Positions 531-21,500 of a stretch of 24,054 nt of DNA are shown in pieces; the stretch's first letter is position 1; the number at the start of each line of letters is the position of its first letter. This DNA comes from a virus. Below the pieces are notes generated by a model. It was not told the DNA's origin and made no database searches. It worked only from the letters and a program-made list of their open reading frames with translations. The stretch covers positions 1 to 24,054 of IMG/VR virus record IMGVR_UViG_3300029448_000066. One strand, 5' to 3'. The translations under genes were made by a program, and so were the position numbers.

Positions 531-3527
531 TTATCCACCTAATGCTTCTAATGCTTTTAATACAGCTTTATTATTTTTTCTTTTTTTCTTTTTAACAGGA
601 ATACCTATCTTTCTAGCTCCTTCTCTAAGAGCAGGCATCATCTTTTCTTTTCTCCATTTACTAATCCATCTTGGTTTATAAGTCCCAAGCTCAATTCGTG
701 CCATTTTTGTATTGATAGTTCCAGCTTCTAAAAATGCAGGTAAAGTATAAAAATATGTTCTTGCGCCCTGTATATTAAATATACGAGCAATTTGATATTG
801 CCAATCTTTACTGCTAGTATCCATCATCATTTTTTTATCTTTTTCATAGTCCTCAGGAACAGTTTGTAAAAAGTCTGTTAATTCAGCTATAGTAATAAGA
901 TCGCTTACAAATGGACCTAGATTAGCAGTTATAGGATTTTTGCCGTAGAATGTACCATATTTGCGCTCTAAATAGTTATCCTCACCAGGGTCAGCACCTA
1001 AATAGTTAATTAATTTAAAAGCATCTTCAATTAATGGATTGTCAATTAAGCCTGCTCTGTTTTCTGTAGTTCTATCTTTTTTCTTATCATCACCAAACAC
1101 CCATCCTGCTGTAGAAAATAAACCTCCAATATCATAATCAGTTGCTGCTGCAAACAAACCTGGTATTAAAGAATATATCATTGACATTCTCATCATTTCT
1201 TGATAAGACTGTGCTATTTGTTTTTTACCAGTCCATGGATTTTTATCAAATACAATACCTGCGGAAGCATCTCTTGCTACTTCTTTAAATAATTGATAGT
1301 TTAAATCAAAGAATGCAAATTTAAAGTGTTGAAATTGTCCAATAACTTTACCACCCTTGCCTTGTAGTATTTTAGCTTTAGCCCAATTATCATAATCAAA
1401 ATGCAACATTTTAACCATTTCTTGAGATATATTTCCAGCAGAGTTTTCCATTGCATCGTATATTTGTTTATCAGTAGCAGTTTTATCTTTACTACTTAAT
1501 TTATTTTTCCAGTAATCATATCTTCTAAGTTCTCCAGTAAAAGCATGAGCAAAAGTTTCTTTAAAAGTATGCAATCTATTTTGATTTTCAGCCCATTGTT
1601 GAGATCCAGCCCGAGTTCCAAATATAGTTCTTTCTGCAGAAAGCTCAGCAATCTTACCCATTTTATCAGCAACAAATTTAGTAGCACCTCCGCCATCTGA
1701 AGTTCTAATTAATAAACCTTGCTTGTCTGTAGTAAAACCTTTTGGAACCATAATTGCATCTAAAGAGCCTTCAGTCAATGCAGAGCTGCCAATGCCCTCC
1801 CCTTTTGAAAGATCAAGACCCATTAAAGATTTTTCTCCTGTTAAAAACCCAAATCTTCTAAGCTGTCTTTCAAGCATAGCATGATTGCCAACAGGTTGTT
1901 CTCCACTTGTAGGATCATAAGGCCTGCTAGTTTGTTGATAAAATTTTCTTTTTAACGATTTGCCTTTAAGCCCAAACTTTACCCAGTTCCACAGACCTTG
2001 AGTTCTATTTTTAAAACCAGACTTAACGGAAAAACCTAATTTAGAAATATATTCAAATCCGTTAATAATCCTTACTATATCTTCCATGCCTCTCATTCTT
2101 TCACCATTATTATTAACTGCAGACTTGTGAATTTCAGCTAATATTTGAATCATCTGGCTAGAGTATTCTCCAATATTAACATTGCCTTTATTAACATTGT
2201 TTTCTCTAACAGCTTTAACCAGGTCTTTAATAGCTACTGAATATGCATGATTAACTTTACTTTTAAAATTAAAAGAAGCTACATCATGAACATATTTGTT
2301 AAGATAAAATACAGGATCTAAGCTATAATACTTTTCTGAATCACCAGCACGTTCTAATCTTCTAGTGACCTTAGTAGGGTCAAGACCATCTATTACTGCT
2401 TGCTCTACTTGCTCAGGAGTCATACCTTTATAGTCTGCTTTATCTTTTGTTTGTGCATAATCTGTAACTTTATTTAATATTTCAGTAAGTTCTATTACAT
2501 ATTTAGGAAAATACTTTTTAATACCTACTACATATTCTCCTGTTTTTGCATCTAATGTTTTATATTTTTCTGTTTTACCTGTGTATGGGTCAATAACTTC
2601 TAATCCATTTTCAAATGTTTTTTCCCAACCTTCTCCTCCAGGATTAGCTTTAATTTTTTTCATATCAATACTAGATTGTATTAAAAGTCCATCTATTTGT
2701 GATTGTATTTTATCAACTGCTTGAGTAAGGAACTTTCTTTCTACTGGATTGTTTAACAGCTCTACTGTTCTTCTTGCAGAAATAGCTCCATTTAACAAGC
2801 CCTTCATAGTATCAGCTCTCAATACATTCCACTGTTGCAATACAGTTCTTTCAAGAGGAGTTAACCCTTGTGTAATACTAAAGTCTAAGATGCCTTCAAA
2901 CCTTCTTAAGACTTCACCAGCATGAGAAATATTTTGTTTAGTAGGATCGCCACTGTAACCACCAAGCTCTATTAATTCTCTTAATATTGCATTAGATTTT
3001 TTAGATCCTGGTGTAGATTCAGCTAATCTTGTTTCAAGGGAAACAATTTGTTTATAGTCTTTCTTGCTTAAAGCTCCTCGTTTTTTAAATATAGGAGAGT
3101 CAACATCTGTAAACATTTTAAATAAACCATCTGTTAAAATGATGTCTAAGCTTTTAGCTCCTTCCTTCATAAACCTTTGATGGTAAGATGCAGCTTCACC
3201 TAATACTTCTATAAATTTTTCACCACCTACAAAGTTTCCAACAACTCTTTTTGGTAATTTAAAATTACGCTGTAACCAGTTTTGTTTAACTCCAATGCCA
3301 TCTAACCACTCATTAACACCAGACTTAAATCTTTTCATATCTACTTTAGTAATGTCACGTGAACCCCAGGGGCTTTTAGTATACTTATTCCATAAAAATT
3401 CAAATGTAGCTGGATCTATTTGACCAGTAGCAAGAGCCTTTGGATTCTTAACTATCTTATCTATAGGACCATCAACAAGTTCTCTATATAGTTTTATCTG
3501 TTCTGGATCTGTACTGTTACATATCAT
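531..3527 (-). CDS. Large internal virion / putative DNA-ejection protein, 998 aa
   Basis: This is the last gene of the minus-strand operon. It starts 11 nt after the giant gene, with TAAGGA (SD fused to the upstream stop) before ATG at 3527. I do not recognise a named enzyme. The sequence is mostly helical. It has a region around residues 631-661 (R-T-I-F-G-T-R-A-G...) and a conserved-looking aromatic stretch near 727-750 (F-Q-H-F-K-F-A-F-F-D-L-N), a style I associate with the C-terminal parts of large phage polyvalent or internal virion proteins such as the LPD38 type. A hydrophobic segment follows at about 778-812 (M-I-Y-S-L-I-P-G-L-F-A-A-A). The C-terminus is strongly basic (K-K-K-K-R-K-N-N-K, about 977-986), suiting DNA contact. 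There is a single cysteine, at residue 3. Its size, position and composition fit a partner ejected with the giant protein; this is inference. Confidence 0.6.
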   Translation of the reverse strand: MICNSTDPEQIKLYRELVDGPIDKIVKNPKALATGQIDPATFEFLWNKYTKSPWGSRDITKVDMKRFKSGVNEWLDGIGVKQNWLQRNFKLPKRVVGNFVGGEKFIEVLGEAASYHQRFMKEGAKSLDIILTDGLFKMFTDVDSPIFKKRGALSKKDYKQIVSLETRLAESTPGSKKSNAILRELIELGGYSGDPTKQNISHAGEVLRRFEGILDFSITQGLTPLERTVLQQWNVLRADTMKGLLNGAISARRTVELLNNPVERKFLTQAVDKIQSQIDGLLIQSSIDMKKIKANPGGEGWEKTFENGLEVIDPYTGKTEKYKTLDAKTGEYVVGIKKYFPKYVIELTEILNKVTDYAQTKDKADYKGMTPEQVEQAVIDGLDPTKVTRRLERAGDSEKYYSLDPVFYLNKYVHDVASFNFKSKVNHAYSVAIKDLVKAVRENNVNKGNVNIGEYSSQMIQILAEIHKSAVNNNGERMRGMEDIVRIINGFEYISKLGFSVKSGFKNRTQGLWNWVKFGLKGKSLKRKFYQQTSRPYDPTSGEQPVGNHAMLERQLRRFGFLTGEKSLMGLDLSKGEGIGSSALTEGSLDAIMVPKGFTTDKQGLLIRTSDGGGATKFVADKMGKIAELSAERTIFGTRAGSQQWAENQNRLHTFKETFAHAFTGELRRYDYWKNKLSSKDKTATDKQIYDAMENSAGNISQEMVKMLHFDYDNWAKAKILQGKGGKVIGQFQHFKFAFFDLNYQLFKEVARDASAGIVFDKNPWTGKKQIAQSYQEMMRMSMIYSLIPGLFAAATDYDIGGLFSTAGWVFGDDKKKDRTTENRAGLIDNPLIEDAFKLINYLGADPGEDNYLERKYGTFYGKNPITANLGPFVSDLITIAELTDFLQTVPEDYEKDKKMMMDTSSKDWQYQIARIFNIQGARTYFYTLPAFLEAGTINTKMARIELGTYKPRWISKWRKEKMMPALREGARKIGIPVKKKKRKNNKAVLKALEALGG

Positions 3528-3538
3528 TGTTTAATTCC

Positions 3539-6500
3539 TTATCTGCATAATTTATCAATAGCATCTTGCATAGCTTCCTTCATGTCTTTAGTTCTACCTT
3601 TATCAGAATGCTCATTAATTCTATCTCTTATAGATTTTTTAGGTATCCACCATTCACCTCTACCGCCTACCTCAAAGCCTTCTCTACCTTGCCATAAAGG
3701 TTCTATTCTATTACGGATAGTGCTAGCATCTGGCATTTTATTCATACTTGTATTGCCTAGCCCTAATGTTAATCTATATAACTCTATAGGATTAAGAGCA
3801 TAAGATCCCGTCATATAAGACATCATTATTTCTTTTGCTTTTAAGTTTAAATCTGATTTTTCTACCCACCTAGGTACAACATCTGGCATAGACAATATAT
3901 CAAAATCATTAAGCTCACGTTTAGTTCCTTCAAATCTAAACACATCACCTTCTAATGTTTTATCCCAAACTTTTAACGATGCAATTTTATGTGCATCTAT
4001 AATATCTTGATATAACTCTTTACCAGTTTCAGGGCTAATAAAATCTATACCTTTATTGCTTTTAATTCTATCAAGCATGCTAAACACTAATCTCTCTCTT
4101 AATACATTTTTATTAAAATGAGGAAGAACAGATGGTTGTCCACTCACTTTATCATAGCCTACTACATCAAAGTCAGTTGTAGAAGCTTTTGGAGATAACA
4201 ACCTGTATAAGAATTGTTTTACATAAGAGTCAGGTGTCATTCCTCCAGCATTAACAGCTTCTTTAACATGGTCAATTAAGACTTGCATTTGTGCTTCAGA
4301 TATTAAACCATACCTATCAGATGTTTTAGGAGCATTTTGATCTACAATATCTCTAGCATTTCTTATTTTTTGATTAAACCTAGAAACAATTCCATCAATT
4401 TCAGCTATCTGACCTTTGCTTAAAGAAGATAAATTTCTTGCAAATGCAATAGACATAGCACGTCGTTGATTATTTAATGCTTGATTACCTAATCTATATG
4501 TTTTATAATTAATAACAAACTGATCGCCTTTTCTAACAGGTGATATAAATCGATCTCCTGGGTTTAACACTTGTATAAACTGACCATCTCTAAACTGTCC
4601 AACTCTACCCCAATCAAGATTTTTATTTAAAAATTTTGTACCTGGTCTTAAGTTACGAGTTTCTGCTATAGCTGAACCAGGGCTATTTAATTGATAGTTA
4701 AATTCATTTAAAACCTTTACTTTAAATGATCTTTGTCGTTCTAAACCTTTATATCTTTCTGTTCCTCTTTTGCCCATAGCTCTCATAAAAGACATAGAAT
4801 CTTCTAATTGATTAACTTCATGTACTAAATATTCTAAATTAGCCCATTTCTTTTGGTCTTTAATGATACCTTTAATAGCCACAGATATTTCAGCATCAGT
4901 TCTAGCAGATTTGCCTGCTAATAATGCTCCTATATCTGTATTGAATTTAGGAGAGCTAAAATGTCTTCTTAACCCCGCTTCCATAGACTGCAAACCTTGA
5001 ATCAAAGGATGGTTACTTACGCCTCCTGGCAATGGAGAATTAGTTTTTACTCCCATAAATGACAATAAAGACTCTGTTAAGCCATGCAATTCGTTTGGTG
5101 TCATTTTTCTAAACTTGCCATTTGTAGATTCTAAGTTATATCCAGCGTATCTAATTTGATTTTTAATAACCTCAAATTGATTTACCATATCATATAAAGA
5201 CATTTTCATAGAAGTACCGTCAGTAAAAGATTGTTTTAATCCTGCCATATCAAAAATCTTACCAACTGGTGTTAATACTTCATTAATTACAGTATTTATT
5301 TTGTTCCATACTGGTTCAGGAATACTAGTAGGATTAAAATCCAATGTTTCATAAGTACCTTTACCGCCTTTAAATATAGATTTTTCAATCTTTAATAAAC
5401 CGTGTGTTGCATCTGTCCATACTAATCTTGCCAAATCAACATTATCAATAGTTCCAGATTCTTTATAGATATCAATAGTTTCTTTAATAAGTTTTTTAGT
5501 ATGACCAACAGCATCAGCTAATGCATTGCCACCTTTAAATGACAATCTATAGTTAACGTTCTGAACAGACATTTCAAAAACAGGATTAGTAGTTTTGGCA
5601 CCATACTCAAACAATGTCCCAGACTTGTTTCCTGCTGCAAAATATTGATTCATAAAAGATGCAATAGAATGCTGTCGTACAACTAAAGGCCTTTTAGATT
5701 CTAAAAGTTTTATTCTTAATCCATAATCTTCAACTAATTCAGGGCTATCTAAAAGTATTTCATTTAATGCTTTATCAAAAACTCTAGTAGCGGGGTCTAA
5801 ATATCCAGCTACATTATAAATATCTTTAATAGCATTAGAAGGTAATCCAAAAAACCCAGATGATTTATCTAAATCAAAATCTGCATCTTGAGGATCTAAT
5901 ACATCTAGCTTATTCATCTCGCTTACAGGTCCTTTACGCTGGTCTAATAGTTTTTCTATTTTACTTATAACCCAATCATTAAGACCTGCTTTTGGAGTCC
6001 TAAGGTCTACATTGACACCATGTATAGCTTTAAATAACTTATTGCCATTATCTAGTATAGTATTTGCTAATGCATCTTTACTTTTATTATTTAAAGAATG
6101 GTCCTTAAATGTTCCATCTGTTATATTTAATTTACCACTTTGACCATCAATAAACATTAATGCTTCACCGAGTGTTTCAAAATTCCTTGCTTTAATTTGA
6201 GAAATAATTTCTTGGAACTGGTCTTTCATAAAGCTTTCAAACTTAGGATGTTTTTTTGCTTTTCCATTTATATCAAGAACTTTCGTATTAAACATTTGGT
6301 TATGAGGTCCTAAAACTTCTCCTTTATGAGTAACAATAATATCATCGCCAACTTCTACAATGTTTTTTAATTTAAACTTATCAATTAATGCTTTATTTGC
6401 AGTAAATGAAAAGCTTAAGCCATCATTTCTCCCTAACAACAATTCTCTAATAGGTTTATTGTATACATGATGAGGTATTCCTGAGCCTCCAAACGATCTT

Positions 6501-9500
6501 TGTACAGGTACAGAGTTTGGATCTGTTGAATCTTTTATTCTAACAGGTAATGATAATTCAAACCCTGCTGTCATAACATTATTTCCACCAGCGGTCATTG
6601 AACTTGAAACAAAATTTCTGCTATTTAAATATTCAGAGTTAACCATTTTGTCAAGTTGAGGAGCCATATATTCAAAGACTGGTAAACCTCCAGCTTCTAA
6701 TACCCCTTCTATGCCTATTAATTTAGACATCATATCTCCGCTCTCCATGCCTATGTTTCTTATTTGTTCTGCAATTTTTTTATACGCAAAAGGGTTTGTT
6801 CGCAACTGTGAATGTCTACTTAACATATCTTGCACCACGTCACCAGAGCCTGTTACTTTTGATATATCGGCAATAGACTTGTTTGATAAAAAGTTTAAAA
6901 ATCCAGCTGACATAGTAGCGTCATGTATACCATTAATAGATTTAATAAATATAGATTCCCTATCTAGTTCTACAATAGTATTTGGTTTATCTTTTTTAAT
7001 TCTAGATATATTTAAATTGTCAGCCAAGTCTTCAAAAAATGTTTTCTTTCTGTTTATATTTTCTGGTAAATCGTGGTTTCTACCTTTAAACTCAGCTTCA
7101 CCTGGAGCTTTTCTTGCATTCTTTTTAGATGCACTGCCAAATGAAATAGAATCTAAAATGTAATTACCTTTACCATCTTGCATCATTTTATCTACAATAG
7201 GATTATATTTATATGCAGTTTTACCAGCAAATACATTAACCTCCCCAGTAGTTATGTCTATACTGCTTTGGTGTTCTACGGGCTTAATTACTACGTTAAA
7301 GCCTACTACTTCACCTTTAGCGTTTCTTATAAACCATTCAGGATTTCCTCCTTTAGCCATTAATTGAGCAGTCATTTCAGGAAGAGATAAATAAGTTTCC
7401 CCATTCACACTAGATGCTGCTAGAGGTTTAAATACCTTAAGCATCTCAGCAGCTTTTGACTCTGCTTCTTTTTGTGATAAATTGTTTTTATCTACTAATT
7501 GCTTAACCAATCTTCTCTCGGCTGCAGCTTGAGTGTCAAAGAATCTCCAGCCTTCATTCAACCCAGCTTCATCATTTATCACTAACTTTCTAAACTTAGT
7601 AGTAGATCCATCTGGATTGAACATTTGCTTATTAAATACATCTATAGAATTAGACATATCTGTTAAGCCAACAGACATTCGTTTAAAATATTCTTTTGAA
7701 AAATTTAAAGTTAAATCATTTAAAGGAACACCTGTACGAGGACTATCTAGTTTCATGTATTTTAATTCAGCTAATGCATCTACTGGAGATAACGATTTTG
7801 ATATAACGTTTTGCACAATATCTGCAGGGCCATCTATTAATCTAGTTAAAACAGTTAATTTTTTAATATTTTCCGCCGTGTTTGGAATATTTACTAAACT
7901 AGCTTCACCTTTTTCTAATCCTACATGTTCACTAAGATATTTTTCTATAATAGCTTCACCGTTTTTAACACCCATAAATATAGCTGATAATTTTTTTCTT
8001 ATTCCACTGTTAGGATTAGCCCATTCAAAAGCTATTTGTTTTGTAACTCCTCTGTGAATAAATATCATTGTATTACCGTCTAACATAACAGGTTGATACT
8101 GAGGCCTGCCATCTCTTCCTTCTCCAACTATACTAGTATTTAAACGATCTATTAACTTAACATCTTCTTTTGATAAAATTTCTTTTGAAGATATATCTAT
8201 AAACGCACCTTCGTTTAAACGTGCTTCTAATTCATTTAAGGTTTGCCTATCTAATCTAGAAGTAAATCCGTTTTTATTTCCTATTCTACTTCCAGCAATA
8301 ATAATTCCACCCTCAATATTTGCTAACCCTAAAGAAGTTTTAAGCCTATTGATACCTCTATCCCAATTAGAGATTGAACCTTCTGTAATATGCAATGCTC
8401 CATTATCAAATACTCCTAATGGCATTTTTTTTGTAGCCAGTCCTGATGCTATAACAAAGTATGAATCTAATAAAAAGTTTTGATATCTTTCTGCAGGAGT
8501 TTCACCTAAACTTTTATCTGCCAAAGATTCAATTTTAATTTTTTGAGATTCTAAAACAGGTTTTAAAACAAGATCTATATAATCTTTAACACCAGCAAAT
8601 TCAGAACTATTAAAATCTATTATGTTTGGATTTTCTGATATCTTTTCCATAAAAGCTTTAGCTGCAGGTTCTAGATTAGATATTGATTTAATTAATTCTA
8701 AAGGTTTGTGTTTAATGGTTTCTATAAAATCTAAATTAGAAGACTTAAACCATTTAGTCATATATTGTGAATCGCTAATAGATGTATTTAATCCTTTAGA
8801 CTTACCAGACCTATTAGATAAATGTATTGCATCTAATTGATCTGAGATATAATCATTAACTCCTTCAATGTCATTTAAACTAAGCTTATCGTTTCTTTCT
8901 CTTAAAGCTTCTGTAACAATTTTGTCTAATTCTTTAGTATAGTCCAATATAGACTTAGACGTTTTAAGAGGATCAGCACCTAGTTTGTCAATAACTTTTG
9001 ACAACTCTTGTCTTCTTTCTATCAATGTTCTTAATCCGACCATGTCTCTATTTTGTAAATATAATTCTAACTGAATTTGCAAATGCCCCGCTGATACTGA
9101 TAACTCTTGAATAGATTTTCTAAAACTATCATTTGTTTTGTCACCATTTAAAACTTCCATTTCAGTTAATTTTTGTATACTTTTATCTATCTCAAGGCCT
9201 AATCTGTTAACTTCAAATGCATAGCTTTCTGTTTCATACAAAGCCATTTTATCTGTTCTGTTAACTGCTTCACGCAATGCTTGTATCATTTCATTAGCTT
9301 CTAATAATTCTTTAGCAGGCTTTAGCTCTTCACTAAATCTAATCAATCCACCATTTCCTTTAGATAAATTAGCTTTCAATGGACCTTCTACTTTCATTTC
9401 ATATAAATCAATAAGCTCACTAACATGTTTATCTCTAGGATTCATTGCTTCATTTACACCAACTTGACCTTGTAATAAAATTTCTCTTAAAGTCCTTGAT

Positions 9501-12500
9501 GTTACTAGATTAAGAGTACCTCCTGATCTTACTCCTAATGGATTTTCTACTTCTAAAAATCCTACAATAGCTTCTTTTAAACCATGAGTTATGTTAGCAT
9601 TTAACAACATATCATTTACATATCGTTTAGTTATATAATTTTTAAAATTACCAAACTGATTAGCATCCATCAAGATATTGCCTATTCCGTCAGCAGGATT
9701 GTTAATTTTATCCATCATATTTTGAAGCTTGCCAGGTTCGATATACTGTACTCCACCTGTTGAAACCCCATCTAATATATTTCTAACTGAATTTATTCTG
9801 TCCATAAAAACCATCATGTCTGAAGTAACGCTTTCTGGATTAGACTGTTCTACTTGAGGGTCAATAGCTATTTTCTTTTTACCTTTAAACCAATCTCTCA
9901 TTTGTAAAACTACTCTTTCAACATTATGATCACCAGGGGTTATCTTGCCTGATAATACATCATAAGCATATCTTTGCCCAGCTCTAATGCCTGCAGTAGT
10001 TACAGCATCCCATATAGGTGTAGAAGATAAAATGTAAGGATCAAAAAATCCTTGGTCTTTTGACCAAGAAGGAACTACTTCTCTCCAACTTGATGCGCCC
10101 TGTTCATTAAATGCTCTTTCATGCATAGCTTCTGTATATCTTTCATACACATTGTTAAATCTATCTAGCACTCCTAAATCTTTAGATATTTCTTGAGAAG
10201 AAAATCTAACTCCAAAATCACCTAAACGAATATTGCCTGCACTTTCAGCTCTTTTTAAAGTTTCATGTAAAGTATACATTGAATCATGATATTGAAGTTT
10301 TCCTCCAACTTCAACTCCTTTACCAATACCTAATGCCTCTAGAATGGAAGAGTTAATTCTTAGCTTACCATCTGAAGCTTCCATAGATTCTGCGTATAAC
10401 CCAAGTTCTTTTAAACTGTCACGAATATATTCAACTTGTGAATTTTCTATCTCTCTAGTAATACGATTAACAGAACTGTCTCTTAATTTTTCCATCTGAG
10501 CTTCAACGTTTTCTACAGTAAGACTAACAGTACCGTTTTCTATTTTTATGTTTTTAAGGGTCTTAACGTACTCTAGAGCAGCGTTTCTATCCATAGGTCG
10601 TACTATTTGTCCATTTAAGCCTAACATCGCCTGAGATTCGATTATTTGAACGACCTTTAAATCGTTAATTAAATTTAATTTTTGATTCTCTAATTTTTCT
10701 TTTTGACCACCAGAAGCTTTTTCTATCTTACCATCGATAGTATTAATCTCATCTCTAACATGTTCACTCCAATGCTTATTGTTAGGGTCAGTTTTTAAAA
10801 CATCTAATGCTTGTTCTACTGTAATAACACTTTCTTTTACCATTTGATGTATTTTAGCTAAATCTTTATTGCCTTCTATTTGTGCAATCTCTAAATTTCT
10901 TTCAAGGCTTTGACTAATATCCATGTTTGCATATACTGCCATTTCATTAAGCTGTACTTTATCTTTACCCATAAGTTCCATAAATACTTCAGCTCTTGCA
11001 ATTTCGCTTCCATTAACATCTTTTCCTACTGCTTCATAGTATTTTGGCATTTTAGGTGCAGGAGATCCATCTCTACCTGGAAGAGGTTTTCCTCTTTTCA
11101 TGTATACAGCCCCAACCCAAGCATCGAATACAAATTGGTCTATAGGATACTCTTCAGTCCCAAATAATCCATTTTGATATTGGTGATACCAATGCTCTGC
11201 ATTCATTGCAACTGAGCCAGCTACATATCTAGAGGCAGATTCATATCCATCTCTTAAGATTTCTTTACCTAAATGCTTAACAATACTTGGCAAATTATTT
11301 CTAAAATGCAACATGCCTTGTTCTAATATTTCATCATCAGCTTTAGTTAAAGTTTTCTTGCTTAACAATGTTCTACCTAAACCAGGAACTTTAGCAAAAA
11401 TAGAAGCATTTTTTCCTGATTGATAATAGAAAGTATTTAATGTTGCCTGTTTATGTTTAGGTGCCATACCTTTAACGTTTCTAAATCTATTGTATAATGC
11501 TTTTCCTATTAACTTAACATCATGAGTCATTCCAGACACAGTTTTTGGAAGAAAACCGCTTTGATTGTCTATTTGCACTAATTTACCACCACCCATTGTT
11601 CTAACTTGAGATAATATTGACCCCATTACAATACCATGCGCAGCTCTTTTCATATTAGAATCAAAGCTCCACTCTGATTCATCTAAACCAGAATAATCAG
11701 CAGCCATATTAGAAAATTGATTAATCAAAACTCCGTGAGTGGCTAACAATGCAGATTCATACAATGCATCTCCAGCTCTTGTAGCTCCTCTAACGCCAAA
11801 CCCTTTGTTAATTAAATTTTGTGTTAAATGTTTTCCAAGCTGATGACCTTGAGCTTCTCCAGCTGATTTCATTACTAAATTTACAGCCTCGTCCAACTTA
11901 GTCCCACTTATCTTAAATGTTTTTGCTAATGATTCTTTTAATAATAATTGTGTTTTAACTCTTACACCTATATCATTTAAAGGATTTGTTTTTAAAACTT
12001 TTCTTTCAGTCCAATTTATAATAGGTTTAGTCTTGCCTAATGCTAATTTTCTACCTTCAGCAATTCCATCAGTAGCGGTTTTTAATAATTTAGGAGCATG
12101 TTTTTTAGCAGACTCTTCAGTAATATTACCACCAATCTTAGCAAGTCCTGCAGCTATATCATCACCATAATATTTCATTGCTCCAGGTACAAGCTTTGTA
12201 GCGCCTGTTATTCCTTTACCAATTAATCCTACTCCAGTCATAAAACCTAATCCAGTACCTAATGCATAACCCAATTTACCTGCCGTTGACTCGTCTTTCC
12301 ATCCTTGGTGACCAAGTGTTGACGATATTTTCCCTCCTAAAGCTATATCTGCTACAGCAGGAACTCCAAAAGATTCAGCAGCTCCCCATATTGTGTTGCC
12401 TACAAAATCAAAAGCTGCACCTACAACAGGTAATTGTTCTAAAGGATTAAATTCAGGAACACCTTCTAATTGAGAAGGGTCATTCCAGTATCTTACAGGT

Positions 12501-12610
12501 CCTTCACCAGAATCAAAGTTAATACTTTCTGCTTCTAATAAATCATTATCTTCTTGTAAACTTGAGTCTAATTCGTAAGCGTCCCAAAAGCTTTGGTCGA
12601 TTTTTGTCAT
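3539..12610 (-). CDS. Giant virion protein with candidate double-psi beta-barrel RNA polymerase domain, 3023 aa
   Basis: An uninterrupted 9-kb gene starts with ATG directly after the TAA of the 549-residue gene (TAAATG), with only a weak SD-like GGAT. Residues about 60-143 are glycine-rich and hydrophobic (P-V-V-G-A-A-F-D-F-V; L-G-T-G-L-G-F-M-T-G-V-G-L-I), suiting membrane contact. A long helical middle follows. Around 2005-2016 lies M-T-A-G-G-N-N-V-M-T-A-G, recalling a conserved block before the catalytic barrel in giant phage proteins. R2204-T-P and then A2243-D-F-D-L-D2248-K match the R-A-P...N-A-D-F-D-G-D region of RNA polymerase beta-prime (R425 to D460 in E. coli, 35 residues; here 40). 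The only cysteine is residue 3022. Inference: a virion-packaged, ejected single-chain RNA polymerase, as in crAss-like phage phi14:2. The alternative is a polyvalent ejection protein with a degenerate barrel. Confidence 0.6.
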   Translation of the reverse strand: MTKIDQSFWDAYELDSSLQEDNDLLEAESINFDSGEGPVRYWNDPSQLEGVPEFNPLEQLPVVGAAFDFVGNTIWGAAESFGVPAVADIALGGKISSTLGHQGWKDESTAGKLGYALGTGLGFMTGVGLIGKGITGATKLVPGAMKYYGDDIAAGLAKIGGNITEESAKKHAPKLLKTATDGIAEGRKLALGKTKPIINWTERKVLKTNPLNDIGVRVKTQLLLKESLAKTFKISGTKLDEAVNLVMKSAGEAQGHQLGKHLTQNLINKGFGVRGATRAGDALYESALLATHGVLINQFSNMAADYSGLDESEWSFDSNMKRAAHGIVMGSILSQVRTMGGGKLVQIDNQSGFLPKTVSGMTHDVKLIGKALYNRFRNVKGMAPKHKQATLNTFYYQSGKNASIFAKVPGLGRTLLSKKTLTKADDEILEQGMLHFRNNLPSIVKHLGKEILRDGYESASRYVAGSVAMNAEHWYHQYQNGLFGTEEYPIDQFVFDAWVGAVYMKRGKPLPGRDGSPAPKMPKYYEAVGKDVNGSEIARAEVFMELMGKDKVQLNEMAVYANMDISQSLERNLEIAQIEGNKDLAKIHQMVKESVITVEQALDVLKTDPNNKHWSEHVRDEINTIDGKIEKASGGQKEKLENQKLNLINDLKVVQIIESQAMLGLNGQIVRPMDRNAALEYVKTLKNIKIENGTVSLTVENVEAQMEKLRDSSVNRITREIENSQVEYIRDSLKELGLYAESMEASDGKLRINSSILEALGIGKGVEVGGKLQYHDSMYTLHETLKRAESAGNIRLGDFGVRFSSQEISKDLGVLDRFNNVYERYTEAMHERAFNEQGASSWREVVPSWSKDQGFFDPYILSSTPIWDAVTTAGIRAGQRYAYDVLSGKITPGDHNVERVVLQMRDWFKGKKKIAIDPQVEQSNPESVTSDMMVFMDRINSVRNILDGVSTGGVQYIEPGKLQNMMDKINNPADGIGNILMDANQFGNFKNYITKRYVNDMLLNANITHGLKEAIVGFLEVENPLGVRSGGTLNLVTSRTLREILLQGQVGVNEAMNPRDKHVSELIDLYEMKVEGPLKANLSKGNGGLIRFSEELKPAKELLEANEMIQALREAVNRTDKMALYETESYAFEVNRLGLEIDKSIQKLTEMEVLNGDKTNDSFRKSIQELSVSAGHLQIQLELYLQNRDMVGLRTLIERRQELSKVIDKLGADPLKTSKSILDYTKELDKIVTEALRERNDKLSLNDIEGVNDYISDQLDAIHLSNRSGKSKGLNTSISDSQYMTKWFKSSNLDFIETIKHKPLELIKSISNLEPAAKAFMEKISENPNIIDFNSSEFAGVKDYIDLVLKPVLESQKIKIESLADKSLGETPAERYQNFLLDSYFVIASGLATKKMPLGVFDNGALHITEGSISNWDRGINRLKTSLGLANIEGGIIIAGSRIGNKNGFTSRLDRQTLNELEARLNEGAFIDISSKEILSKEDVKLIDRLNTSIVGEGRDGRPQYQPVMLDGNTMIFIHRGVTKQIAFEWANPNSGIRKKLSAIFMGVKNGEAIIEKYLSEHVGLEKGEASLVNIPNTAENIKKLTVLTRLIDGPADIVQNVISKSLSPVDALAELKYMKLDSPRTGVPLNDLTLNFSKEYFKRMSVGLTDMSNSIDVFNKQMFNPDGSTTKFRKLVINDEAGLNEGWRFFDTQAAAERRLVKQLVDKNNLSQKEAESKAAEMLKVFKPLAASSVNGETYLSLPEMTAQLMAKGGNPEWFIRNAKGEVVGFNVVIKPVEHQSSIDITTGEVNVFAGKTAYKYNPIVDKMMQDGKGNYILDSISFGSASKKNARKAPGEAEFKGRNHDLPENINRKKTFFEDLADNLNISRIKKDKPNTIVELDRESIFIKSINGIHDATMSAGFLNFLSNKSIADISKVTGSGDVVQDMLSRHSQLRTNPFAYKKIAEQIRNIGMESGDMMSKLIGIEGVLEAGGLPVFEYMAPQLDKMVNSEYLNSRNFVSSSMTAGGNNVMTAGFELSLPVRIKDSTDPNSVPVQRSFGGSGIPHHVYNKPIRELLLGRNDGLSFSFTANKALIDKFKLKNIVEVGDDIIVTHKGEVLGPHNQMFNTKVLDINGKAKKHPKFESFMKDQFQEIISQIKARNFETLGEALMFIDGQSGKLNITDGTFKDHSLNNKSKDALANTILDNGNKLFKAIHGVNVDLRTPKAGLNDWVISKIEKLLDQRKGPVSEMNKLDVLDPQDADFDLDKSSGFFGLPSNAIKDIYNVAGYLDPATRVFDKALNEILLDSPELVEDYGLRIKLLESKRPLVVRQHSIASFMNQYFAAGNKSGTLFEYGAKTTNPVFEMSVQNVNYRLSFKGGNALADAVGHTKKLIKETIDIYKESGTIDNVDLARLVWTDATHGLLKIEKSIFKGGKGTYETLDFNPTSIPEPVWNKINTVINEVLTPVGKIFDMAGLKQSFTDGTSMKMSLYDMVNQFEVIKNQIRYAGYNLESTNGKFRKMTPNELHGLTESLLSFMGVKTNSPLPGGVSNHPLIQGLQSMEAGLRRHFSSPKFNTDIGALLAGKSARTDAEISVAIKGIIKDQKKWANLEYLVHEVNQLEDSMSFMRAMGKRGTERYKGLERQRSFKVKVLNEFNYQLNSPGSAIAETRNLRPGTKFLNKNLDWGRVGQFRDGQFIQVLNPGDRFISPVRKGDQFVINYKTYRLGNQALNNQRRAMSIAFARNLSSLSKGQIAEIDGIVSRFNQKIRNARDIVDQNAPKTSDRYGLISEAQMQVLIDHVKEAVNAGGMTPDSYVKQFLYRLLSPKASTTDFDVVGYDKVSGQPSVLPHFNKNVLRERLVFSMLDRIKSNKGIDFISPETGKELYQDIIDAHKIASLKVWDKTLEGDVFRFEGTKRELNDFDILSMPDVVPRWVEKSDLNLKAKEIMMSYMTGSYALNPIELYRLTLGLGNTSMNKMPDASTIRNRIEPLWQGREGFEVGGRGEWWIPKKSIRDRINEHSDKGRTKDMKEAMQDAIDKLCR
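5867..6001 (-). other. Candidate RNA polymerase catalytic region (R-T-P ... D-F-D-L-D) inside the giant protein
   Basis: Bases 6001 down to 5999 encode R2204, which begins R-T-P-K-A-G. Bases 5881 down to 5867 encode D2244-F-D2246-L-D2248, preceded by D-A and followed by K. In cellular beta-prime the same order occurs as R-A-P-T-L then N-A-D-F-D-G-D, where the three aspartates hold the catalytic magnesium. Here the Gly is Leu, comparable with the hydrophobic residue I recall at this place in crAss-like phage polymerases (DFDID). The match is short and made by eye, but the spacing between the two blocks is close to that of the cellular enzyme. Confidence 0.6.
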
Positions 12611-14260
12611 TTACACTATCCATTCATTTTCAGCTAAAGCAAGCGCTTCAACTACTGTGTTGTCTAATATTTCTTCTTCTTGAGTAGTACCTTTATATGC
12701 ATACAATTCTTCTATAGGAATTTGACTATTTATATTATTTGCTTTAGAGCTAGGATCTAAATCATTAAACAGTCCTAAGATGCCGCTTTTTGTTTTATCT
12801 TCTATCCATTGATATTGTTCTAAAATAGCATCCATAATTTGATTGTCATAATCTCCTGGACTTAAACCGAACAGTCTTAACACTGCTGTTTTTCGTCTTT
12901 GGTTTTTAGGATCGTCATAGTCTATAAGCACAGGCTCTCCTTGACTGTTCAATACAGGTTTGCCAGAAGCTTGATTTACTCTTACTGTTAAAAACTGTTG
13001 AGCTAATTTTAATTGTTCCATAAATAAAACTTCTGTTGCTTGATCTTGAGGTTTACTTATAGCATTAAAAGCATCTATAAAAGCTTTTCCTTGCGTAACC
13101 TGTCGTTGAATCATTGGATCTGCCCACGTTCCTTCTTTTGGATTAAATGAGTTGTCTATAGTAGCAATCTCAGGTCTATTGTTTACCAATATTTGCTGAG
13201 AAGCTTTAGTGTTTAACAGCAGAGCTCCTATCTGTTGATACTCTTTTTGCAAAGTCATCCATGCTACTTGAGTGTCATCATCCCAATTATCAAAATTAGT
13301 AGGAGACATATTAGATATATAATCATCATCTGCTGCTCCTGTTTGAGCTAATAATGTTGAATACTGACCTACTTTACCTGCTGTACCTGCAGCCATACGA
13401 TTTATTTGAGGTCCAACAACAGCTCCAAGTTTTGCACTTCGTTCTCCAAGAAGAATATCTTTTTGATCTTTAGGAAGTGTATCCCAAGCTATATCCATAA
13501 TATTCTGTTCTTCAATTCCTTGTTTAATAACAGACTCTCTATTTTTAATAATAGATTCTCTTTGAGCATACCTTGTTGTTTGAGGAGCTAACATTCCACT
13601 CCATATTGATTTATATCTTTCTATAGTCTCTGTATCAAACTGACCGTCTGCACCAGGTATTAATCCTTGAGATTTCATAGCTGGAAGCAATGTTGATTCC
13701 CAGTAAGGTTCAAGATCGCCAGCATCTACCATATAAGGATCACCTCCTTGTGATGCTACAGTAGCTAAATTTTGAGCCATATTGCCCTTTAAATAGCGCA
13801 AAGCATTTTGATCTTGCTTAAGTCTATTGCGCTGATTATTTAACTGGCTAGCATACTCAGAATCGTCTACAATAATTTCAGCTCTTTCTTTAATCAAATC
13901 ATACATCGGTTCAGAAACTGCATCTTCTAGTTGATTTAAAACATTCAATGCAGTGTTATCGCTAGTCCCGTTTATATCGCTTGTGTCTGGCAAGAACGTA
14001 GTAGTATCTTGAAATTCTTGTTGTATTGTTCTAATCTCATCTTCATATGTTGAAATTTCATTTTTATATTTATCAGAACTCATAGCTAAATTTTGCAAAG
14101 ACAATTCAATTAATGCCATCTCTTCTTGATTCTGCATTTTTTCTCTCTCTAATGCATATTGTTCTTGCATGCCATATAAGCCTATAAGAAGCTCTGGTAA
14201 ATCAGAAACTAATTTCTCAAGAGGTCCTGCTTCCTGTCTTTGTTTTAAAATTTTTGCCAT
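12611..14260 (-). CDS. Helical, cysteine-free probable internal virion protein, 549 aa
   Basis: ATG at 14260 follows AAGGAGATATA, a strong ribosome binding site. No family is recognised. Residues about 31-85 look like a long amphipathic helix or coiled coil (M-Q-E-Q-Y-A-L-E-R-E-K-M-Q), and much of the rest is rich in Gln, Asn, Asp and helical segments. There is no signal peptide, no clear membrane segment and no cysteine. It sits between the two Cys-rich proteins and the giant gene and abuts the latter with no spacer (TAAATG). The position and composition suit an internal core or ejection-complex component made together with the giant protein; this is inference from context. Confidence 0.5.
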   Translation of the reverse strand: MAKILKQRQEAGPLEKLVSDLPELLIGLYGMQEQYALEREKMQNQEEMALIELSLQNLAMSSDKYKNEISTYEDEIRTIQQEFQDTTTFLPDTSDINGTSDNTALNVLNQLEDAVSEPMYDLIKERAEIIVDDSEYASQLNNQRNRLKQDQNALRYLKGNMAQNLATVASQGGDPYMVDAGDLEPYWESTLLPAMKSQGLIPGADGQFDTETIERYKSIWSGMLAPQTTRYAQRESIIKNRESVIKQGIEEQNIMDIAWDTLPKDQKDILLGERSAKLGAVVGPQINRMAAGTAGKVGQYSTLLAQTGAADDDYISNMSPTNFDNWDDDTQVAWMTLQKEYQQIGALLLNTKASQQILVNNRPEIATIDNSFNPKEGTWADPMIQRQVTQGKAFIDAFNAISKPQDQATEVLFMEQLKLAQQFLTVRVNQASGKPVLNSQGEPVLIDYDDPKNQRRKTAVLRLFGLSPGDYDNQIMDAILEQYQWIEDKTKSGILGLFNDLDPSSKANNINSQIPIEELYAYKGTTQEEEILDNTVVEALALAENEWIV

Positions 14261-15880: not shown

Positions 15881-16744
15881 TTAATACTTCCTATATTTTA
15901 ATGGAATATCAAAAGGCACTATAGGGTCAAATGATTCAAAATCAAGACTATCGAACTCTTCAAATATATCGTCATCTAAACCTTCAAATATATCGTCGTA
16001 ATAATCATCTGCATCATCTATTAGGCTTCTAGGATTAAAATTTTCAGTAGTTACACTGCTCGTATTAACTACAGGCTCACTTGTTGATGCATTTGCTTGC
16101 CTAGCTTCATTCATACCTGTTATAAAATTAAGAGGATTAAAATTATAATCTTGTGCTAATAAATATTTAAATTTATCTTTCATAGAAGGGGCTATTGCAG
16201 TAGTAGTTCCACTTACAGCTTCACCAGCCATATTTACTCCTTCTATAGTAGCAGGCGCAGAACCCATATTTTTAAGAGCTTTCATGCCTCCACCTAGTAT
16301 AAAAGCAGACGCTGCATCTTTTGCGGAGCTAACATACTGCTCTTCATCAAAATCTCCCCATTGCATATCAAGATCAGATTCTAATTCACTTTCAAAATTA
16401 GTTAATATTCCTTGTGATTCTATATCGTCTACCGTAACACCTTCTCTAAAAGCTAAAGCACTTAACCCTTCGTCAGCAATATCAGACCATCCTTCAGTAC
16501 GTTCTCCCACTTCTCTACCTACTCTACTGCCAATACCCGCTAAAGCAGATCCAGCAAGCAGACCAACGCCTCCAGTTAATGCTCCTACTAATAAAGGAAG
16601 ACCAACTGCTCCTATAATACCGCCCCACATAGAACGAGTAGCAGCATCTTGATTTCGAGTTTGCATATCATTAAAACTACCCATTAATTCATCTTGTGCT
16701 TCATCAACAATAGTTGCTAACTGTGCTTTAAACCTACTACTCAT
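15881..16744 (-). CDS. Glycine-rich hydrophobic protein with acidic tail, probable membrane-interacting virion protein, 287 aa
   Basis: ATG at 16744 follows AAAAAGGAGCGCCA, a strong site after a 69-nt gap from the fibre gene. Residues about 40-73 form a Gly/Ala/Leu-rich hydrophobic hairpin (G-G-I-I-G-A-V-G-L-P-L-L-V-G-A-L). There is a second, weaker glycine-rich patch (A-F-I-L-G-G-G-M) near 147-154. The C-terminal 50 residues are very acidic, with the unit D-D-I-F-E occurring twice, then end basic (K-Y-R-K-Y). There are no cysteines. Such Gly-rich hairpins occur in phage proteins that enter the host membrane during DNA ejection, which fits the giant proteins downstream; a structural role in the tail is the alternative. 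No family name can be given. Confidence 0.45.
   Translation of the reverse strand: MSSRFKAQLATIVDEAQDELMGSFNDMQTRNQDAATRSMWGGIIGAVGLPLLVGALTGGVGLLAGSALAGIGSRVGREVGERTEGWSDIADEGLSALAFREGVTVDDIESQGILTNFESELESDLDMQWGDFDEEQYVSSAKDAASAFILGGGMKALKNMGSAPATIEGVNMAGEAVSGTTTAIAPSMKDKFKYLLAQDYNFNPLNFITGMNEARQANASTSEPVVNTSSVTTENFNPRSLIDDADDYYDDIFEGLDDDIFEEFDSLDFESFDPIVPFDIPLKYRKY
15958..15997. repeat. 16-bp direct repeat with 24-bp period inside a coding region
   Basis: CTTCAAATATATCGTC occurs at 15958-15973 and again at 15982-15997. The 24-bp period equals eight codons, and the copies encode the doubled D-D-I-F-E of the acidic tail of the 287-residue protein. This looks like a recent in-frame duplication, not a regulatory site. 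Confidence 0.8.
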
Positions 16745-16813: not shown

Positions 16814-18502
16814 TTATGTCCCATCTGATATAGTGCTAGGCAATGCTATGGCTTCCATTATCCAAGAACCATAATACGTTGTACTTACGCCTTTACCAAA
16901 AAACAATCTTCCTCCAGCAGTACCTTCTTTTGCTGTACAATATAATGTTTTTGATTGTCCAGCACTCCAGCTGTGGTCTGCTCCATTAATATTCCATTCT
17001 TGATTTACCATGACACCATCACTCTCATCAACATCCCATACAAAATTATTATACTTAGTGTCTAATGCTGTGGCCGATGCATCAGTAGCTAAACCTAATT
17101 CTAAAAGACCATCACATGATACGCAATATGGCAAGAATACTTTTATTTTAACTCTATTACTTGGAGGTACTACGAATGATACTTTTAAATAATGATCAGC
17201 ACTATCAAAGTTTTTCATAATATTAGCATGAGAAGTTGTTGTTGCATAATAACCCCCTGTGGTATATGTTATATCTGTTGCGCCCAATATCATGCCTGCA
17301 TAAGAGCTATTGGCAGCACTAAATTCTGTACCGTTATTTTGTGCTATATATACACCTGTTGCAGGGTTAAACCGTAGATCACCATCAGGAGATAGGGTAA
17401 GATGACCTTGAGATCCAGACGCATCATTTGTAGAAATTATACTTGCACCATGGTCTATCCCTACAAGTATATTGAACATATCATTTAAATCGTTAGGAGA
17501 ATATATTCTAAGCCCTTGACCTGAGTTCCAATTTAACCTAGGACCTGTACCTGCAACATTAAAATTAATATCGCTACCACCAGCATCAAGAGTAATATCT
17601 CCTCCAGCATCTAAAAATATATCTCCACTTGAATCAATTTCTAAAAGTCCAGTATCGGTTCCATCAGAAGCATCTGTTATTGTAGATTCTATCTTCCCAA
17701 ATATTACAGTTTGAGCAACAGGACTTCCATCAACTACATTAGAAGCCCCATCATTTCTTCCTTGAAAAACTATTTTCCCTATAAGATCGCCATCTTGACC
17801 ATAGCATGTAGTAGTGCTAGTCCCTCTTTGAGTGTCAAATTGCAACGTAGAGGCTGCAGTTGCAGAGTTTGTTGTAGCTTTTAACCTTACATCTACATTA
17901 TCCCAAAAATCAAAGTTATTCCCCAAGGCAGCTTCACTAGCTTCAAATATTTTATCTCCACCCACATACATATCTAATACATCTGCAGAAGACTCATGTA
18001 TATAAGTATGTCCACCTAGTCCATCAAAATATAATTTTTTAGTAGCTGTTAAAAATGTATCAACATCTTGAATTATTACACTATTATTTGTTGTGTGAAA
18101 TCTTAATCCTGAAGTTGTATTACCGTCTGAGTTAATAGGAGGAGATAATGAAGCAGAAACTCTTCCGTCCCAATATTGCAATCCTCCCCTAGTTCTTTGC
18201 CCTCCCATAGCAATAACTCCACCCATCAATAATGCTCCTGTTCTAGAATTGATAGTAGTGCCACTTTGAGACATACTGTTGGGAGTGTCTAAATCTGCGC
18301 CAGCAGCTTCTTGAAGAGACTGATCTCCTACTCCATACCATTTGTTTTTAAATTTGCATAAAAGTTTTAAGCCTGACTTAGTCATTCGCAATGTTAATTC
18401 ACCGTCAGAACCTTCAGAAGGTTTAGGTAAACCCATTCCAGTCTTAACTCTAAACCCTTTTAAATGTCTAAGTTGTCTTTCTGCTGATGAATATTTAGGC
18501 AT
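16814..18502 (-). CDS. Tail-fibre-like protein, 562 aa
   Basis: ATG at 18502 overlaps the upstream stop as TAATG and is preceded by AGGAGCATATA. The N-terminal part (about 1-60) holds G-E-L-T-L-R and G-L-K-L-L-C-K-F-K-N-K-W-Y-G-V, a module that would attach to the tail. The middle is beta-rich and low in complexity, with fibre-like units such as L-D-A-G-G-D-I and L-D-A-G-G-S-D-I (297-312) and many Ser, Thr, Asn, Asp and Gly residues. The C-terminal part (about 400-562) looks globular and beta-rich and would be the host-binding tip. Its position right after the nozzle-like gene fits. The receptor is unknown, and no intramolecular chaperone or enzymatic domain was recognised. It ends in tandem TAATAA stops. 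Confidence 0.65.
   Translation of the reverse strand: MPKYSSAERQLRHLKGFRVKTGMGLPKPSEGSDGELTLRMTKSGLKLLCKFKNKWYGVGDQSLQEAAGADLDTPNSMSQSGTTINSRTGALLMGGVIAMGGQRTRGGLQYWDGRVSASLSPPINSDGNTTSGLRFHTTNNSVIIQDVDTFLTATKKLYFDGLGGHTYIHESSADVLDMYVGGDKIFEASEAALGNNFDFWDNVDVRLKATTNSATAASTLQFDTQRGTSTTTCYGQDGDLIGKIVFQGRNDGASNVVDGSPVAQTVIFGKIESTITDASDGTDTGLLEIDSSGDIFLDAGGDITLDAGGSDINFNVAGTGPRLNWNSGQGLRIYSPNDLNDMFNILVGIDHGASIISTNDASGSQGHLTLSPDGDLRFNPATGVYIAQNNGTEFSAANSSYAGMILGATDITYTTGGYYATTTSHANIMKNFDSADHYLKVSFVVPPSNRVKIKVFLPYCVSCDGLLELGLATDASATALDTKYNNFVWDVDESDGVMVNQEWNINGADHSWSAGQSKTLYCTAKEGTAGGRLFFGKGVSTTYYGSWIMEAIALPSTISDGT
17570..17614 (-). repeat. Two tandem LDAGG(S)DI units in the fibre shaft
   Basis: Bases 17614-17594 encode L-D-A-G-G-D-I and the following bases, after one Thr codon, encode L-D-A-G-G-S-D-I. 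The codons differ between copies (for example GGA versus GGT), so the repeat is kept at protein level, as expected of a beta-helical fibre shaft. Confidence 0.6.
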
Positions 18503-21500
18503 TATATGCTCCTATATACCAAGGTAACATCGTTTAATTCAAAATTAACAACTTGTCCTACAACGCTTTCAAATCTAACTTGAATAGAATGAGCTTTTTT
18601 AGGAATCCTATTTACTGAATCAAAATAAAAAGTAGAAGCAATCCAGGTCGCAGAAATATCAAGCCTTCCAATTTCTTCATATGAAGACTTTCCATCATAA
18701 GATACTTGCACTGAAACTGGGCTTTGACATTTGCTAGTTACAATTAAATTGTAAAATACTTTCATGCTAGAAGGTACTCCAAAATCTATATCTCTAGTCC
18801 TTACATCTAAAGTTTGAGGGAAATTAGACGAATATCCATTGTTAAATTTGTTAATATCTATTCCTAATGAAACCCATGCTGAAACATTTAATGCAGATAT
18901 TGAATCACTTAAACTGTAAGAAGTAATATGTACTATAGAAAAAACAACATGAGCATTTGAATAATCTCCACTTGCAGTATCTCCGTCAACTTCTTTTACA
19001 GGGTGAAATGCATTTACTAGATCAGCCCCACCACCTATTTCATCTGACGCACTACAAATAGTAATAGGAGTGTAAGGATCAGAATAAGCAGCTACTGATT
19101 TAATTCGATAATGAGTTCTTGCCAAACTATTTCCATTTTGCTGAGCTTGTCTTACTTCAAACATATCTCCTGGTTTTATATAGTTAGTCCAATTTCCTTG
19201 TACTTTAACAATTAACCCGCTTCCTGAAATATTAGTTATCCCTGTATCGCTTTTTAATACTTTAATACTTGAAAACATAGAAGGATGTGTTTGGTGAATT
19301 AATTCTGTTATATTGGACAATCTTAATGCAAGGTCAAAATCGTCGTCACCTAAATTAGTTGTAGTTGTTAAACCGTCAGAATAAACAAATCCATCATTAC
19401 CTTGTATATTAAGTTTGTATAATAAACCCTCAGATACAGCACCATTTCTTCTAGGATGCAATGTATGTTCTCCTTGAACTGGAGCTACACCGTCTTGTAT
19501 TGGCTCCCCACTATTTTCAACTGCTAAAGTAGTAACTCCATTGGTAAATCTTACTGTAGCATGATCTCCATAAGTACCAGCGCTAGTCCAAATGTCTTGT
19601 ACAGTATCGCTTTGATCTATTTTTTTAAATTTTAAGACTGTTACTTTAGCTGCAGCTCCCCAATAATGTGCTGGAGCATGATCTATCATAGCGCAGGTAT
19701 TGTTTCCCCATTGGTCATAACAGTCATTGGTCCAAGTACCTAAATCAGCATCTTGACTGCTTCCGCTAACAATCGTAGTAAAAGGCGTTATTAAATCAAT
19801 GCTATCTAGTATTAATGCATTACCTCCAAAATTATTACCTGATAAAGTTGCATTTGCAATTACTATATCTTGGCTTAAAGTAAAACTTCCACTTTTATCT
19901 CCAAGAACAGTAATAATCATATCATCTGCGTTTACTCTAAAAACTACACCTGGAATTTGCCAGTCCATATTTATTGTTACAGGCGGAGCACTAAAAGCAA
20001 GATCAGGAATGCGTGAAAAGTCTCTTTGACCGCTACCTAAATTGCTATCAAAATCTAACAAATCACCAGCGCCATTAATTAACTCATCTTCATTAACAGA
20101 CACAATGCCTTCCAAGTCTCCTGAAGGTATAGACATGTTTATACTAGTAAATGTGGTGTTATTATTAGTATGCCAACCTGTTCCAGTACTTAAACCGTAT
20201 TCAAGATATCCATTATTTGGAGTATCTAATAAATTATTATTCCCTAATGCATGCCCTTCAATGTATGCTTTTTCATGAAATCCTACATGAGATAAATTTA
20301 AATCAATTTTTACAGAAGAAACTCCATCATAAGGATCTCCCCCTGCAGCATTTAAATCTCCTCCACCTGTTTTAGTTAAATATATTTGAGACTTTCCTAT
20401 ATTTTGATATCTAGGAACACCTTCTTCTTGATACGAACTTAAACTATCACCTAAAAAAGAAGGTGCTTTTTCCACATCCTCTGTAGCAGGTATTTCAGGA
20501 CCCATGCTCAAAGGATCAATGTGCATATGATATGCAATAACGCATGAAGGATAAGAATTGTTAGTTTCCCAAGTTGAGCCGCTTACTTCGTGAGGAGCGC
20601 ATAAAGATACTTCTCCATTAACTCCATAGTTTACTGTTGACTCGTCTGGAAGAGTTCCTCCACTAGAACCTTCTTGAATATGAAGAGCAGATGATTTTGT
20701 AATTGTGCTAGCAGCTATATCAACATAAGTTGCAGTAGGCGCATTTGTAACAGTTAAAGTATTATTTGCATAAAGCTCTCCAGTAGAAAGAATATTACTT
20801 GCGTTTCTATATATACTTAAAGTACTATTGGTTAGAAAAGTAAACAAGTCGTTTCCTACTTTTTCAGATATCATTCTTTCTAAAAAAACACCAAAACTTT
20901 CCGTTACTCCATCTATACCAACATTGGCGTTTAAAGGATATGAAAATTGATTAGTTATATCAGTCGATCCAATTGTAAACTTTGTATCAGTTGCAGTCCA
21001 TTCACCATTTACTTGTGAAATAATCCATTGCGCATTTGTTCCAATGTTTGCTTGTACAGGATTATATATATCAACACTTTCAGAATTATCTACACTTTCA
21101 GAAATAAACATGCAAGTATCATCATAATTCATAATAATATTAGATTTTGAATATCCACTTATTGTATCTTTTCCATGAGTCCATGAACCTGTTTGTAAAT
21201 CATATATCATTACATCTGACCTTACAAGATCAGTAACATCATTATTGTTTTCCATGTAATTAACAGGATCTTGAAATACAAGTATTTGTTTTAATTCTTG
21301 TATATATCCTATCATTCCATTTTTCCCAATAAAATCATACCAACCTCTTACACCAGAAGTCATACCTTCAGTTGGATTTAATTTTCCAAGAATTAAATTA
21401 GTTATTTTTTCACCGTCATATAAAAAGCATCCATTTCGATTTACCCAAACAGGACCATATTCAGTCATGCACGTTTGATAAGGATGCTCTACTCCCATAT

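Follow-up and report, generated by a model that had tools for sequence, protein, structure and literature searches.

Results

A giant gene in a late block

The minus strand of the window (the whole stretch of DNA analyzed, comprising the first 24,054 of the 48,950 bases of the virus record) is a late block in which presumed tail genes are followed by genes for small glycine- or Asp-rich proteins and then by genes for proteins of 549, 3023, and 998 aa. The largest product, P0001 (3539–12610, minus strand; 3023 aa), is predicted to be a single-chain virion RNA polymerase with two double-psi barrels (DPBBs). Its open reading frame (ORF) lies immediately downstream of the ORF for the 549-aa protein (12611–14260, minus strand) and directly upstream of that for the 998-aa protein (531–3527, minus strand). 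Farther upstream, also on the minus strand, are a sequence-based candidate for an ejection protein of 287 aa with a glycine-rich hydrophobic segment (15881–16744), a presumed tail gene (16814–18502), and a co-directional gene for a 1549-aa presumed tail component without a library match (18502–23151). At the end of the record, positions 2–385 of the window encode on the plus strand a RusA-like Holliday junction resolvase/PDDEXK protein (PHROG 244, E 3.5e-16), the frame of which is open at the record end.

Beyond the window, on the strand and in the block of P0001, the record encodes the terminase large subunit (TerL; PHROG 38, E 9e-66), a P22-type portal (PF16510, E 1e-50), and an SU10-type capsid protein (PF17236, E 1e-22); a lysozyme is also encoded farther along. 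The original prediction, made from the sequence of the window, was that P0001 is a virion-packaged polymerase encoded where such an enzyme would be expected, and the genes around P0001 are indeed structural. The phage is uncultured and short-tailed. The best matches of TerL, among those listed, are to various podoviruses at 24–25% identity, and the matches of the terminase, portal, and capsid suggest a place elsewhere than in the Crassvirales. The contigs of P0001 relatives are mostly under 61 kb, with one of 83 kb. Almost all relatives with sequence of sufficient length encode a protein similar in size to the 998-aa product (751–1050 aa) 3′ of the polymerase, and relatives also have a gene at the position matching that of the 549-aa protein, with a product of 274–888 aa.

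Genes on the plus strand at the opposite end of the record are presumed to be early. Sigma factor region 2 was absent from the record in a profile search with a working control, and no repeated 14-mers that could be candidate early promoters were found in the record. The early end also carries, at about 45.3–48.8 kb on the plus strand (L003:6253-9763), a cassette encoding a 75-aa small protein, a 506-aa protein of unknown function, a Prok-JAB protein (PF14464, E 3.7e-6), and a ThiF/E1-like protein (PF00899, E 3.7e-20), with matches to PADLOC E1-E2 models (E 7e-14); from its domains it looks like a phage ubiquitin-like conjugation or deconjugation set. Runs of N, read as XXXX in the metallophosphoesterase (L002:1664-2317) and the 506-aa protein (L003:6717-8237), are assembly gaps, and the frames of these two proteins are therefore uncertain.

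The predicted catalytic motif is invariant in a diverse family

The prediction was prompted by R2204-T-P and, 40 residues later, D-A-D-F-D-L-D-K, and both motifs lie where claimed: the interval 5867–6001 runs exactly from R2204 to D2248, and R2204 is separated from D2244 by 40 residues. The corresponding distance is 35 residues in E. coli beta-prime (R425–D460) and 39 in phi14:2 gp66 (R1322–D1361). R2204-x-P2206 (5993–6001, minus strand) is the equivalent of beta-prime R425-x-P and gp66 R1322-x-P1324, and the predicted catalytic-metal loop D2242-A-D2244-F-D2246-L-D2248-K2249, which would be the DxDxD of DPBB-A, occupies 5864–5887 on the same strand. The individual codons are at 5999–6001 (R2204), 5885–5887 (D2242), 5879–5881 (D2244), 5873–5875 (D2246), 5867–5869 (D2248), and 5864–5866 (K2249). 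Taken alone, the RxP/DxDxD motif is weak evidence, and it is conservation and fold that decide. Composition shuffles of P0001 contained some DxDxD in 45% of cases, and in 2.4% an RxP preceded a DxDxD at a suitable distance. The exporter Wza, the sole match in a sequence search of the Protein Data Bank (PDB), contains QDADFDLDK; it was rejected as a relative, being an unrelated protein with a chance match covering about 20–30 residues.

Relatives were gathered by scans of IMG/VR with successive alignments. This yielded 37 distinct sequences, making 38 giant proteins with P0001, of which the complete ones are 2953–3213 aa in length. The family splits into two clades, and the distant clade is 17–20% identical to P0001 over the core. 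Across the 38 sequences, 31 of the 3023 positions are invariant, and 10 of these fall within residues 2204–2249 (R2204, P2206, G2227, N2233, D2236, D2242, D2244, D2246, D2248, and K2249). Only 7 of 184 Asp residues are invariant, four of them in the motif (D2242, D2244, D2246, and D2248); R2204 is the single invariant residue among 138 Arg, and 5 of 251 Lys are invariant (K1617, K1776, K1797, K1829, and K2249). Among the first three sequences, no other 30-residue stretch anywhere in the protein is as conserved as residues 2223–2252 (24 of 30 identical, compared with a mean of 21%). The spacers in the motif vary between F, Y, and N, between L, F, and M, and between A and S (DADFDLDK, DADFDFDK, DSDFDMDK, DADYDMDK, and DADNDFDK), and because the residues between the aspartates are variable, selection acts on the aspartates themselves. 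The original prediction had named unconserved aspartates in homologs as an outcome that would count against it; they are invariant in all 38 sequences.

D2242 is a fourth invariant Asp, extending the motif to DxDxDxD, and is lacking in the crAss enzymes, which mostly have G there. We take its position to be that of N458 in E. coli beta-prime, which has a suggested role in sugar selection, and it is possible that D2242 affects sugar or metal selection. Among the relatives, one protein (L114:2999-12361) keeps both the RxP and the DxDxD parts but has them separated by an insertion of more than 100 residues, which was not seen in the others. In a deep branch with DADNDFDK (L094:4691-13873 and L096:4528-13674), the position between the first two metal-binding aspartates, usually aromatic, is Asn. 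Searches of annotated phages by tblastn detected no relatives of P0001 or of L035, and scans of genome contigs detected none.

The N-terminal half of P0001 (residues 1–1500; 8111–12610, minus strand) is conserved in the family, has no known relative and no Pfam or PHROG match, and is presumed to be the packaging and ejection part. A hydropathy scan of P0001 found no strong transmembrane segment, so membrane insertion by P0001 itself is unsupported.

A profile link outside the motif

A crAss-type profile was built from eight cores, namely phi14:2 gp66 (from KC821624) and seven from crAss-like phages and Flavobacterium phage Fpv1. When the 37-sequence core alignment was compared with it by hhalign, the best match (score 50.0, E 1.6e-4) covered residues about 1697–1835, a region far N-terminal to the motif. 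The highest score was 23.5 among sixty shuffled targets and 25.2 among natural decoys. The next match was the RxP…DxDxD stretch, and the two are collinear, core positions 123–252 and 620–676 corresponding to crAss positions 14–167 and 440–489. The upstream region (7106–7522, minus strand) would be a beta-like barrel region equivalent to DPBB-B. Within it, K1776 (7283–7285) pairs with gp66 K1012, K1797 of a KTA motif (7220–7222) with K1027, and K1829 (7124–7126) with K1065, all encoded on the minus strand and all invariant both here and in the eight crAss-type cores. RxP is likewise invariant in the eight cores and is present in P23-45 gp96. The link through the lysine region, as a sequence alignment outside DxDxD, is independent of the motif. 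A profile comparison with crAss-like polymerases had been suggested as a check, and the lysine region aligned at a score above all decoys.

With 16 sequences the hhalign comparison with the crAss profile was not significant. The family profile found no match to gp66 as a single sequence, and P23-45 gp96 gave no hhalign profile match. The 998-aa partner at first gave a suggestive match to the crAss gp76 group, which dropped to a score of 28.9 with deeper alignments, and homology was not established.

The predicted core fold

The polymerase core was modeled as residues 1575–2750 (4361–7888, minus strand). AlphaFold2 with 16 sequences gave a model with pLDDT 69 and no PDB match, for which the only named significant Foldseek matches among predicted structures of viral proteins were the crAss-like cr50_1, cr118_1, and cr111_1 (E 1e-5 to 6e-4), the last annotated as a putative RNA polymerase. 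With 37 sequences the model improved to pLDDT 79.6 and pTM 0.77, and Foldseek against the PDB ranked 6vr4_A, the phi14:2 polymerase, first and as the only significant match (E 8.9e-7, prob 1.00). The match has low TM-scores (0.27 and 0.16), a large rmsd, and about 9% identity over the alignment. A plant RDR2 chain (7eu1_M) and the phiKZ and AR9 non-virion two-barrel RNA polymerases were insignificant runners-up. The catalytic Asp loop is poorly modeled (model residues 667–671, pLDDT below 50). From the model we infer that the core fold includes two double-psi barrels with the three Asp clustered in one.

The structure prediction that had been proposed as a check on the polymerase assignment produced a core model matching the two-barrel polymerase 6VR4, and no confident model placing the aspartates outside such a barrel emerged. 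The proposal that P0001 is a member or distant cousin of the phi14:2 polymerase group is supported by this match, by the crAss matches in the viral library, and by the lysine pairing. A conserved helix at residues 2369–2383 with invariant D2380 (5462–5506, minus strand) resembles, at the motif level only, the crAss VDxxKxP segment (gp66 D1612); it is a possible counterpart of that segment and perhaps belongs to the bridge-helix region.

A family invisible to profile libraries

P0001 has no match in Pfam, PHROG, or NCBIfam. Neither has gp66 itself, so the blank scans say nothing against P0001 as a polymerase. Blank libraries are to be expected both from the gp66 result and from the published report that, outside the DxDxD region, many two-barrel RNA polymerase families are not significantly similar in sequence (PMC10770324). 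Together, the invariance, the fold match, and the lysine pairing indicate, as judged from alignments and a predicted model, that P0001 and its relatives are single-chain two-barrel RNA polymerases of a new family that the libraries do not detect. No description of the family was found in the open-access literature searched, subscription papers and preprints being mostly outside the search. Giant single-chain two-barrel virion RNA polymerases are a kind already known, and the P0001 family would be a new one within that kind.

Discussion

A probable packaged polymerase for the first phage genes

We consider it highly likely that P0001 is a single-chain, DNA-dependent RNA polymerase with two DPBBs and a fold closest to that of gp66, which is packaged, injected, and transcribes the first phage genes. 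In the proposed mechanism, residues about 1700–1835 would form the beta-like barrel, with K1776, K1797, and K1829 contacting RNA and nucleotide phosphates, and residues about 2190–2260 would form the beta-prime-like barrel. There the catalytic Mg2+ would be held by D2244, D2246, and D2248, and R2204 would contact either the nucleotide about to be added or the RNA 3′ end. P0001 would be packed with the DNA during head assembly, be ejected first, before the DNA and together with the neighboring ejection proteins, and then refold in the cell and transcribe the first plus-strand genes. Early expression would in this way proceed without a sigma factor or host polymerase.

We infer virion packaging from the position of the gene in the structural block, and it is there that another reading has its opening: a two-barrel RNA polymerase could be made in the infected cell as a non-virion enzyme for middle or late genes. 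Two-barrel polymerases of this sort exist, among them P23-45 gp64 and the phiKZ and AR9 non-virion enzymes (PMC10770324), and the latter two are among the weak fold matches of the P0001 core. However, the P0001 gene shares block and strand with those for capsid, portal, and terminase, beside tail-side genes and outside the presumed early plus-strand block, and its product is about 3000 aa long with a core of only about 1200, whereas non-virion enzymes are compact. We therefore regard a non-virion role as unlikely.

A bolder extension of the packaged-polymerase reading, which we hold to be distinctly improbable, would make these phages, about 50 kb in size and outside the Crassvirales, a lineage of ancient origin that is sister to the crAss polymerases and has the virion enzyme as the sole phage polymerase. 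In that case D2242 would alter sugar selection or the binding of metal, enabling the ejected enzyme both to transcribe and to prime or copy DNA. The same residue, at the beta-prime N458 position, could be taken to suggest a two-barrel fold with some other chemistry, for instance priming or DNA synthesis in the manner of archaeal PolD, or RNA-templated synthesis in that of QDE-1/RDR2, since PolD and the RNAi polymerases are built on the two-barrel fold too (PMC10770324). Such chemistry is made very improbable by the closest fold match, which is to a DNA-dependent RNA polymerase, and by a gene context that is structural and not replicative. It is scarcely credible that P0001 serves only in structure or ejection, lacks polymerase activity, and carries its DxDxD-like sequence by chance, for although the shuffles and the Wza example show how readily the motif arises, it is invariant in 38 sequences down to 17–20% identity and is accompanied by the 6VR4 fold match and the lysine pairing.

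If P0001 is a packaged polymerase, its family enlarges this kind by at least 38 giant single-chain proteins, diverse in sequence and unrecognized by Pfam, PHROG, and NCBIfam, from uncultured phages with genomes near 50 kb. Injection of a cellular-type polymerase, and with it host-independent early transcription, is probably commoner than annotations suggest. The 31 invariant residues among 3023 are a ready test list, and residues 1575–2750 offer a compact core for expression.

Comparison with known virion polymerases

To our knowledge, the virion two-barrel polymerases characterized so far come from only a handful of lineages, namely crAss-like phages, Thermus phage P23-45, and jumbo phages with multisubunit enzymes. 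YonO and QDE-1/RDR2 resemble P0001 in having two barrels in one chain, and RDR2 (7eu1_M) was a sub-threshold fold match, but they are non-virion proteins and none matched P0001 significantly. The virion RNA polymerase of coliphage N4 has the T7-type single-subunit fold. An N4-type enzyme was rejected as a model for P0001, since no such match appeared in the sequence or fold searches of the protein; a PF00940 search of the record gave no match, and its control was also silent. The likeness to N4 (Schitoviridae) is in the giant size of a podovirus virion polymerase (about 3500 aa) and in its ejection with partners, and the mode of action proposed here is similar (PMC12633501).

In P23-45 gp96, as is proposed here, a virion two-barrel RNA polymerase domain, with FRNP…DFDGD, lies inside a giant ejected protein, the polymerase being fused to the tail tape measure protein (PMC10770324). 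The gp96 domain differs in lacking a clamp and in lying at the N terminus of a tape measure protein of 5002 aa, in a phage with a long tail. In Flavobacterium phage Fpv1 (KU599877, Fipvunavirus), a crAss-type RNA polymerase is found unrecognized in a protein of about 4,400 aa annotated only as structural; such polymerases are therefore not without precedent outside the Crassvirales, in which this phage is not classified.

The closest likeness is to gp66 of phi14:2 (PDB 6VR4; AGO48955.1 in KC821624), one of the crAss-like phages, which are common in the gut. Like P0001, gp66 is a single chain in which a three-Lys beta-like region precedes RxP…DxDxD, and its gene lies between two other giant genes, as in the 549-3023-998-aa order here. 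The two proteins differ in length (2180 vs. 3023 aa), in R-to-D spacing (39 vs. 40), and in the motif (TGSDFDIDK vs. QDADFDLDK, with a fourth Asp in P0001). The genomes differ as well, 97–100 kb for a crAss-like genome, within the range of about 90–105 kb for Crassvirales, compared with 49 kb for the record here, the TerL of which matches various podoviruses. In phi14:2, mass spectrometry underlies the annotation of the polymerase and both flanking giant products as virion proteins. The crAss001 virion carries its RNA-polymerase-associated proteins as cargo, which has been proposed to leave the particle in a partly unfolded state (PMC10172136). By analogy, packaging and ejection of P0001 would closely resemble those in phi14:2 and crAss001.
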